From assembly GCF_014931565.1 (NCBI RefSeq), contig NZ_CP063353.1:868001-932000 (forward strand): 64,000 nucleotides of DNA. Reading direction: 5' to 3'. Positions within the stretch are counted from its first letter, which is position 1; each line of letters begins with the position of its first letter. Shown in pieces: positions 2,329-30,838 of the stretch. The notes beneath the pieces were generated by a model that was not told where the DNA came from, made no database searches, and was given only the letters and a program-made list of their open reading frames with translations. This DNA comes from Clostridium sp. 'deep sea'. Its GTDB lineage: Bacteria > Bacillota > UBA994 > PWPR01. The translations under genes and the position numbers were made by a program.

Positions 2329-2404
2329 ATGAAGTGCCTTCGGCATGAAGTGTTACTTTGTAACATGAAGTATACCTATGGTATATGAAGCGTGCTAAAG
2401 CACA
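2329..2404. repeat. tandem array of ATGAAG boxes separated by variable perfect hairpins
   Basis: Four ATGAAG boxes (2329, 2345, 2365, 2385) are each followed by a short perfect hairpin of different sequence: TGCC-TTC-GGCA, TGTTAC-TTT-GTAACA, TATACC-TAT-GGTATA and GTGCT-AA-AGCAC. The last three boxes have an exact 20-base period. The linker is constant while the stems differ at nearly every position and still pair, which is the mark of selection or templating for the fold. A related piece occurs at 3490-3522 and a decayed one at 13362-13390. It directly follows the tRNA-Pro terminator in the minus direction. Confidence 0.75.
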
Positions 2405-3484: not shown

Positions 3485-3557
3485 GGGGTATGAAGCTTGC
3501 CTTTGGCAAATGAAGTGTGCTTGGCTCATTCAGGAGGGAGAACCCCTTCTAATTTAC
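3485..3557. repeat. second copy of the ATGAAG-hairpin repeat with GGAGGGAGAACCCC box
   Basis: ATGAAG boxes at 3490 and 3510 (period 20) flank a TTGCC-TTT-GGCAA hairpin. They are followed by GAGGGAGAACCCCTTC, which recurs at about 13403-13420 in the same relative position. Same family as the array at 2329-2404. Confidence 0.6.
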
Positions 3558-28779: not shown

Positions 28780-29514
28780 CTAGTTATTCTCTTTTACTTC
28801 TTCTGCAGCTTCTTCTGCTAACTCAGCAACAGCTCCTTGGTTGCCTTCTAAAATAGCGTCAGCAATAACCGATGACAGCAACTTAACAGCTCTGATTGCA
28901 TCATCATTACCAGGAATAACATAATCTATAAGATCTGGGTCACAGTTTGTATCAACCACAGAAACAATAGGAATATTTAGTTTTTTAGCCTCTGCAACAG
29001 CAATCTTCTCTTTGCGAGGATCAACAATAAATAAAGCACTAGGCATTTTTTTCATTTGTTTAATTCCGCCTAAAAACTTCTCTAAACGATCTTTTTCTTT
29101 TCTTAATGCAACTACTTCTTTTTTAAGTAATACATCGAAACTACCGTCTACTTCCATTTCTTCGAGCAATAATAATCTTTTAATTCGCTTATTGATTGTT
29201 TGGAAGTTAGTTAAAGTTCCACCTAACCATCTTTTATTAACATAAGGCATACCACAACGAACTGCTTCTTCTGCTATGCTCTCAGATGCTTGCTTTTTAG
29301 TTCCTACAAACAATACTGATCCACCAGCGGCAGCGATATCTCTTATAAAATCATAAGATTCTTCAATTTTGCGAACTGTTTTTTGTAAATCAATGATGTA
29401 AATACCATTACGCTCTGTAAAAATGTATGGAGCCATTTTTGGGTTCCAACGACGTGTTTGGTGACCAAAGTGAACACCAGATTCGAGTAACTGTTTCATT
29501 GCAACAACTGACAT
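28780..29514 (-). CDS. rpsB: 30S ribosomal protein S2
   Basis: 244 residues with the S2 motifs [51 protein letters not shown] and [13 protein letters not shown] with AGGAGG seven bases upstream. It has its own promoter (29639-29667) and a leader of about 115 bases with a folded stem (29556-29606), then tsf follows after 20 bases. Confidence 0.98.
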
Positions 29515-29638: not shown

Positions 29639-29667
29639 AGTATACCATACGGGGGCTTTATATGCAA
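29639..29667 (-). promoter_or_regulatory. rpsB promoter
   Basis: Minus strand: -35 TTGCAT (29662-29667), 17-base spacer, -10 TATACT (29639-29644). The structured element begins three bases upstream of the -35 box. Confidence 0.65.
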
Positions 29668-29669
29668 GA

Positions 29670-29987
29670 GGTTTGGGTAGTTGCAAGCAACTCCGGGGTA
29701 AACTCGTTTTTAGCAAACCTCGTGGGGTGGATTTTTCACCTTGTGAAATATGGGGTGGGTTCGCCTTTGGCTCACGGAAAGTTATGCTCGCTAAAGCATC
29801 GCTATATCACGTCAATGAAGAGCTACGTATCACACCTTTTGCTGAAAGCAAACTCAATCCGCGAGCGAAGTGAGCCCACTCCGTTTTGAATTGTCAAAAC
29901 CCACCCCACGAAGCCGATAGGCGAGTCCTCCCCGTATTTGACTAGTCAAATACCCAAACCGTAACTGCCTAGCAGTTACCCACCCCA
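29670..29987. repeat. GC-rich element of nested inverted repeats between codY and rpsB
   Basis: Three nested complementary arms are visible: GGTTTGGGTA (29670-29679) with TACCCAAACC (29951-29960); CGGGG..ACTCG (29694-29706) with CGAGT..CCCCG (29922-29934); CGTGGGGTGG (29721-29730) with CCACCCCACG (29901-29910). Between them are small perfect hairpins such as AGTTGC-AA-GCAACT, TTTGACTAGTCAAA, GTAACTGC-CTA-GCAGTTAC and TTTTGA-ATTG-TCAAAA, several followed by CCCACCCC or CCCAAACC linkers. Open frames across it look like by-products. No known RNA class is recognised. It could be a mobile repeat or a structured RNA. Confidence 0.75.
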
Positions 29988-29991
29988 AAAC

Positions 29992-30019
29992 AAAAGAGTT
30001 GCCAAACGGCAACTCTTTT
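29992..30019 (-). terminator. intrinsic terminator after codY
   Basis: AAAAGAGTTGCC and GGCAACTCTTTT form a 12-base-pair stem around AAAC (plus strand), with T residues after it in both directions. It lies about 50 bases after the codY stop. Confidence 0.85.
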
Positions 30020-30067
30020 GTTTATTGTGAGTGGTTGTTATCACTTAAAGTCTTTTATACAATGCAC

Positions 30068-30838
30068 TTATTCTAAAGAAATATTAAGTTGATCTAATAA
30101 TCTTTCGTTTAATACTTTAATATATGTGCCTTTCATTCCTAAAGAGCGTGATTCAATTACGCCGGCACTCTCGAGTTTTCTTAGAGCATTAACAATTACT
30201 GAACGTGTTATACCCACTTTATCAGCAACCTTGCTAGCAACTAAAAATCCTTCTGTGTTGCCAAGTTCTTGGAAGATACTTTTTGCTGCCTCAATTTCCG
30301 AATACGATAAAGCATCTAAAGCAATTTCTACCATAACATTTTTACGATATTCTTTTTGTTTAAACTCTACCTCTCGATATACTCGTTCCATTGTAAGCAA
30401 ACTACAAATTATTTCTCCAAAAATATGATCAACATCATCATATTTATCGTTGAATTTTATTGCAACAATTTTAATAATATGTCTTTTTTTATTTAGTAAA
30501 GGAATAGTCATTACACTTATATTGTCATAAGCACAGTCATCTTCTGTACCCAATAAACATTCTTCTTGTGACAAATCTTTAATAACAACGTTTGGTGTTG
30601 CGTTAGTAAAGTAGCTTTGCCCAAAACTAAAAATGTTGTTTTTAACTGTTTTCTCTAATATTTCACCTTGTAAGTCATTTAAGTAAGCTTTGGCTAAGAC
30701 CTCGTTGTCATCATTAACAGCTATAATATTAGCATTAGTTAATCCTGTTAAAATAGATGTTAGTTCAGATAACTTGACCTTCCCCGTATTATCTCTTAAA
30801 TAACTAGTTATCATTTGAACTCGTTCTAGAAGCCCCAT
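30068..30838 (-). CDS. codY: GTP-sensing transcriptional repressor CodY
   Basis: 256 residues, normal length. N-terminal GAF domain (1-155) for branched-chain amino acids, linker, and winged helix-turn-helix (about 195-250) with ASKVADKVGITRSVIVNALRKLESAGVIESRSLGMKGTYI. It represses nutrient and protease genes when amino acids and GTP are plentiful. It follows hslU by ten bases, the conserved hslV-hslU-codY order. The secreted subtilase and peptidases in this window are plausible targets, but I found no perfect CodY box. Confidence 0.97.
   Translation of the reverse strand: MGLLERVQMITSYLRDNTGKVKLSELTSILTGLTNANIIAVNDDNEVLAKAYLNDLQGEILEKTVKNNIFSFGQSYFTNATPNVVIKDLSQEECLLGTEDDCAYDNISVMTIPLLNKKRHIIKIVAIKFNDKYDDVDHIFGEIICSLLTMERVYREVEFKQKEYRKNVMVEIALDALSYSEIEAAKSIFQELGNTEGFLVASKVADKVGITRSVIVNALRKLESAGVIESRSLGMKGTYIKVLNERLLDQLNISLE

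Follow-up and report, generated by a model that had tools for sequence, protein, structure and literature searches.

The closest described counterparts of the repeat reported here are the REP, BIME and REPIN sequences of bacteria. Published REPs comprise a bulged and a perfect type, carry a tag at their 5' foot and form inverted doublets (PMC8266576, PMC3116915); they occur as singlets, doublets and ordered tandem clusters, with compensatory changes in their hairpins (PMC3116915, PMC8266576). By definition, a REP bears a GTAG (or CGTC) tag beside a stem that is conserved within its family (PMC3733652, PMC8266576). The family described below extends this known kind of repeat (BIME/REPIN-like) with new features, the most surprising being fixed linkers combined with free hairpins; it is previously undescribed, and a literature search, with most subscription journals outside its scope, found no account of it. 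Eukaryotic foldback elements have long modular inverted arms around a variable centre, and the BOX elements of pneumococcus and other small modular repeats are modular, intergenic and non-coding. To our knowledge, neither a linker-hairpin grammar nor terminator-abutting ends are features of BOX or foldback elements.

The copy under study is a non-coding element of 318 bp (29670-29987) within a stretch of 64,000 nucleotides, which we will refer to as the window. It lies between rpsB (28780-29514, minus strand) and codY (30068-30838, minus strand), two assignments supported by family models, above the curated cut-offs for RpsB and below them for CodY. As claimed in a preliminary description of this DNA, the element is GC-richer than its surroundings (49% vs. 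33% for the window) and is flanked by the rpsB -35 box on one side and the codY terminator on the other: its left end lies two bases from the box (ATGCAA at 29662-29667 on the plus strand, i.e., TTGCAT on the minus strand), and its right end abuts a terminator hairpin (29988-30023) recognised by eye and not flagged by a simple terminator scan. This copy keeps the codY terminator apart from the rpsB promoter and probably has little effect past that spacing. A protein-coding reading was dropped, as the plus-strand ORFs, of 90 and 66 aa, extend through the hairpins, and a sequence scan found no promoter-like site inside the element. Both strands fold very stably, at -131.7 kcal/mol (z -8.8) for the plus strand and -138 kcal/mol (z -7.0) for the minus strand, with 0 of 100 dinucleotide shuffles equally good in either case.

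The long arms named in the preliminary description are all present on inspection of the sequence: GGTTTGGGTA (starting at 29670) with TACCCAAACC (ending at 29960), CGGGG..ACTCG with CGAGT..CCCCG, and CGTGGGGTGG with CCACCCCACG, the last within the pair I3 (29720-29735 / 29896-29911). The three nested arms described there are mostly recurring linkers together with their adjacent modules. The element, several of whose small hairpins are perfect, is better described as linker-hairpin modules forming two facing arms, whose parts and neighbours are as follows (strand given where assigned):

29639..29667, minus strand: rpsB promoter (-35 TTGCAT, -10 TATACT), neighbour; same promoter in the congener G001
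29670..29987: whole element (G-rich arm, centre, C-rich arm)
29670..29676, plus strand: outermost left linker GGTTTGG
29677..29693: outer left hairpin GTAGTTGCAAGCAACTC, outer pairs imperfect
29700..29723: class B-like module AAACTCGTTTTTAGCAAACCTCGT, after a degenerate linker
29724..29730, plus strand: linker GGGGTGG
29731..29751: class A hairpin ATTTTTCACCTTGTGAAATAT, one pair broken
29752..29758, plus strand: linker GGGGTGG
29759..29775: class B-like module GTTCGCCTTTGGCTCAC
29776..29860: centre with core ATGCTCGC..GCATCGC; TATCACGT..ACGTA, the core common to about 12 copies
29861..29875: class B-like module GCGAGCGAAGTGAGC
29876..29882, minus strand: linker CCACTCC, one mismatch to CCACCCC
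29883..29900: class A hairpin GTTTTGAATTGTCAAAAC
29901..29907, minus strand: linker CCACCCC
29908..29926: class B module ACGAAGCCGATAGGCGAGT, internal loop GAA/GA
29927..29933, minus strand: linker CCTCCCC, one mismatch
29934..29953: class A hairpin GTATTTGACTAGTCAAATAC
29954..29960, minus strand: linker CCAAACC
29961..29979: class A hairpin GTAACTGCCTAGCAGTTAC
29980..29986, minus strand: outermost right linker CCACCCC
29988..30023, minus strand: codY terminator hairpin, neighbour outside the element

Searching the 3.83-Mb genome for linker-joined hairpins revealed about 40 loci sharing this linker-hairpin grammar. The parsed copies hold 69 arms in about 43 loci, a few of the arms being weak, hence the rounder figure; the catalogue was drawn from pattern searches, the stretches around their matches and 20 evenly spaced 20-kb stretches, and misses degenerate copies. 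When the element was used as a DNA query, its own genome gave 39 matches, and 30 relatives gave none. Counts of the pattern GGGGTGG-N12-36-GGGGTGG were 38 here (1 in the reversed control), 8 in the congener (0 in the control) and 88 in G046, of the same phylum and a different family (2 in the control); for most of the remaining ~195 relatives they were close to those of the control, G046 being the clear exception. With the linker relaxed to GGKKTGG, the own genome yields 103 matches vs. 24 in the control. The class B module pattern described below has no match in viral contigs or in genomes from 84,980 species, collections that stand for other lineages only and may leave out the window's own and near records. 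Comparison of the element with plasmids and phages by blastn gave no match, and Rfam, at default as well as lax thresholds, gave no credible match, with weak sub-threshold ones only around the terminator and no membership at gathering score. Recent amplification is shown by tandem copies that are nearly identical, at 643.7-644.6 kb and 1568-1569 kb.

Across copies, the linkers are invariant (GGGGTGG or GGTTTGG in left arms, CCACCCC or CCAAACC in right arms), with one module between each two successive linkers and arms made of hairpins of 17-21 nt. In class A, the module is a perfect hairpin, in most cases 17-21 nt long: six or more outer Watson-Crick pairs form in 47 of 107 distinct inserts of 15-21 nt, vs. 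a shuffle mean of 0.04. Several pair types occur at each of the six outer positions (at pair 5, TA 32, CG 7, GC 5, AT 3), so the stems have changed on both sides while the linkers stayed, and swapping halves between modules of equal length retained the six pairs in only 54 of 390 combinations. These paired changes, the covariation sought among the copies, show palindromes drifting with their pairing kept. Class B modules have two outer pairs, then GAA, GAT or GAG on the 5' side against GA (26/33) or AA (7/33) on the 3' side, making a G·A-rich internal loop, and then an inner stem; the class is defined by these loop motifs, and their counts describe it and do not test it. This layout is read on the C-rich strand; in 19 modules vs. 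1, that strand folds more stably than the other. Neighbouring modules are A-B or B-A in 46 cases, A-A in 15 and B-B in none, many modules being unclassified; the two classes thus tend to alternate along the arms. Arms are found singly, doubly or in tandem. A G-rich arm followed by a C-rich one, i.e., a facing pair, was seen 18 times, and the reversed order once, between tandem copies; two C-rich arms follow each other seven times, in tandem or duplicated loci. Centre and module number vary freely: about a dozen copies have the core ATGCTCGC..GCATCGC, TATCACGT..ACGTA, and other copies an AT-rich centre bounded by GCTAGCGCGG / CCGCGCCAGC. Most of the 17 copies folded have z < -4, with both strands about equally stable.

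All parsed copies are intergenic and none lies in an identified gene, as judged by ORF position only. Often, an intrinsic terminator's T-tract runs straight into the outer linker (T-run|GGGGTGG or CCACCCC|A-run). Under a strict automatic rule, 9 of 58 arms have a terminator at their outer end, vs. 0.44% of the intergenic positions across 400 kb sampled evenly, which is about 35 times above expectation (P 5e-12); more copies, the one in the window among them, abut terminators by eye. These terminator-abutting ends point to a testable target rule. A copy at 395519-395900 (L220) lies just upstream of the apparent start, recognised by eye, of an RNase P RNA gene. Along the chromosome, 35 of the 43 loci fall at 0.33-1.69 Mb, about one third of its 3.83 Mb and mainly one replichore and the surroundings of the terminus (GC skew changes sign within 0.42-0.59 Mb, and dnaA is at 2.46 Mb). 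This bias stands against the mobile-repeat reading proposed below, and pattern searches could favour well-preserved copies.

Orthologous sites without the element were found in the congener. Its codY-rpsB interval contains a terminator and the same promoter, with no element in between (RpsB 90% identical), and only a short stretch with a single terminator hairpin, again without the element, lies between its mutS2 gene and the PBP gene convergent with it (78% identical). At the latter site, the genome under study carries an element followed by 7.7 kb of other genes and then a second element, which is partial and whose C-arm is homologous to that of the first; both elements adjoin a terminator. 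These homologous arms at both ends of the 7.7-kb insert suggest recombination between copies. The insert, located in L248 (426000-437300) and missing from the congener, encodes ankyrin-repeat paralogues, identified by eye, and a peptidase-like ORF. Copies have accordingly been gained or lost at both sites since the two genomes diverged, and presence/absence alone does not separate gain from loss.

Nine Y1_Tnp genes are present in the genome, one of them IS200-like and several RAYT-like, the latter called by length and by a match to NF047646 below the NCBIfam cut-off. No module array lies within 1.5 kb of the RAYT-like genes (L022-L027), and genes of this type are present also in relatives without these arrays. 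The IS200 gene (L021) is the sole Y1 gene with an arm nearby, an arm with a palindromic CCACCCC-TAAGA-GGGGTGG junction at 1499197-1499362. This gene at 1,499 kb was considered as an autonomous parent and rejected, no other copy examined adjoining such a gene; in our view, an IS200 inserted close to a copy. No transposase gene was found inside any copy examined, and the copies showed no movement, target-site duplication or exact junction.

We interpret this repeat, an intergenic family with its own grammar, terminator-abutting ends and presence/absence between congeners, as probably a lineage-specific set of dispersed, non-coding, non-autonomous foldback mosaic repeats of BIME/REPIN-like organisation. 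Each building block combines a short hairpin with one of the fixed linkers (GGGGTGG or GGTTTGG), and with two arms facing each other around a variable centre, one DNA strand can fold into a long branched hairpin. Copies may spread as such folded single-stranded DNA, with Y1/HUH transposases acting in trans and each hairpin having GTGG at its 5' foot as a putative tag; insertion directly after an intrinsic terminator's T-tract would be either favoured or tolerated, and tandem duplication may also lengthen the arms. It is from the REP/BIME/REPIN-like anatomy together with the Y1_Tnp genes that we infer mobilisation in trans, and the involvement of the genome's own Y1/RAYT-like transposases is plausible but unproven.

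This mobile-repeat reading is favoured over four others. The preliminary description had offered a mobile hairpin element or a structured RNA, and its first half, an apparently mobile element, is supported by some 40 dispersed loci with one grammar, empty orthologous sites in the congener and the lack of an Rfam match. The second half found no positive support: a transcribed element whose branched fold is the function would agree with its very stable folding, the paired changes in the stems and the greater stability of class B modules on the C-rich strand (19 vs. 1), yet the arms are oppositely oriented, so that each strand has one arm in the less stable sense, and the strands fold about equally well. 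Together with the missing Rfam match and internal promoter-like site, the unconserved centre, the free variation in module number and the occurrence of arms singly, doubly or in tandem, this makes a structured RNA decidedly unlikely. The abutment of terminators far above chance raises instead the idea of a transcription barrier kept by the host, in which the arrays back up termination, insulate convergent or neighbouring genes or protect mRNA 3' ends; the intergenic copies, and the separation of codY from the rpsB promoter in the window, agree with it. Nevertheless, the terminators are already complete without arrays, orthologous sites in the congener do without the element, and a spacer or barrier needs neither fixed linkers nor an A/B order, so we regard this explanation as unlikely.

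Conserved linkers beside drifting stems are also what would be expected if a DNA-binding protein recognised the linkers, which would then act as chromosome-organising sites clustered in one region, and the 35 of 43 loci in an arc (0.33-1.69 Mb) that includes the terminus would fit. This is nonetheless very unlikely, as the terminus is not at the middle of the arc, linker pairs are few in the congener, and plain binding sites require neither hairpins nor A/B order. As for a passive product of replication and recombination, it would arise without a transposase by tandem duplication, palindrome-keeping template switching and recombination at linkers; it accounts for the near-identical tandem copies, for paired stem changes (through palindrome correction) and for the 7.7-kb insert bounded by homologous C-arms, but leaves unexplained the some 40 dispersed sites, the terminator-abutting ends and the facing-arm layout, and we give it little credence.

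Should the mobile-repeat reading be true, BIME/REPIN-like repeats would be extended far from the well-studied Proteobacteria and with an inverted logic of fixed linkers and free stems, and bulged and perfect hairpins in one array would constitute a natural experiment on whether Y1/HUH recognition relies on structure or tag.

Regarding other known systems, the present repeat is, like BOX elements, modular, intergenic and non-coding, and its arms around a variable centre are foldback-like; no sequence relation to either was found, the sequence comparison consisting of Rfam only. With IS200/IS605 it shares hairpin-bearing DNA, a Y1 transposase in the genome and one IS200 gene beside an arm, whereas neither a transposase gene nor single left and right end hairpins were found in the copies examined, the arms being arrays of many different hairpins. 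Nearer in design are the ATGAAG-linked arrays, whose likeness to the element had been pointed out beforehand and holds: they share its design and make up a second linker class in this genome and the congener, again with perfect hairpins between invariant linkers, the linker being different. They are spread around the chromosome (window positions 2329-2390 and 3490-3515; genome positions 1920546, 1995456, 2202456, 2710451 and 3011078) and occur also in the congener. The GGGGTGG-linked arrays of the distant relative G046 (L060, L069, L075, L090-L096) likewise have perfect hairpins, invariant linkers and facing arms, around a centre of ~90 bp, and differ in their near-identical tandem units of 42-43 bp. 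A broader and more doubtful proposal, which we put forward tentatively, is that such repeats form a new class of mobile DNA in bacteria, with an invariant linker between hairpins of any sequence that have the right size and type (perfect or G·A-bulged, roughly in turn), copies entering terminator T-tracts as folded single strands and classes with other linkers (ATGAAG, the 42-bp G046 type) coexisting in Bacillota.

Finally, the likeness to the REP/BIME/REPIN system (TnpA-REP/RAYT; E. coli, Pseudomonas) includes palindromes that are small and intergenic and bear a G-rich tag at their 5' foot, their arrangement as inverted doublets and as singlets, doublets and tandem clusters, and compensatory hairpin changes, and the bulged and perfect REP types (PMC8266576) parallel classes B and A. 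In this sense, the repeat consists, as REPs do, of short, many-copy, intergenic palindromes, with inverted doublets as a common unit (18 facing arm pairs vs. 1 reversed). In contrast, its tag is GGGGTGG/GGTTTGG and not GTAG or CGTC; it keeps linkers and not stems, so that a GTGG tag within GGGGTGG stands beside stems that vary; it combines bulged and perfect hairpins in one array; and no copy adjoins a RAYT gene, unlike in a REPtron, where copies lie beside the cognate RAYT gene. These differences in tag, stem and REPtron lower the case that the repeat is a REP, not the case that it works like one.
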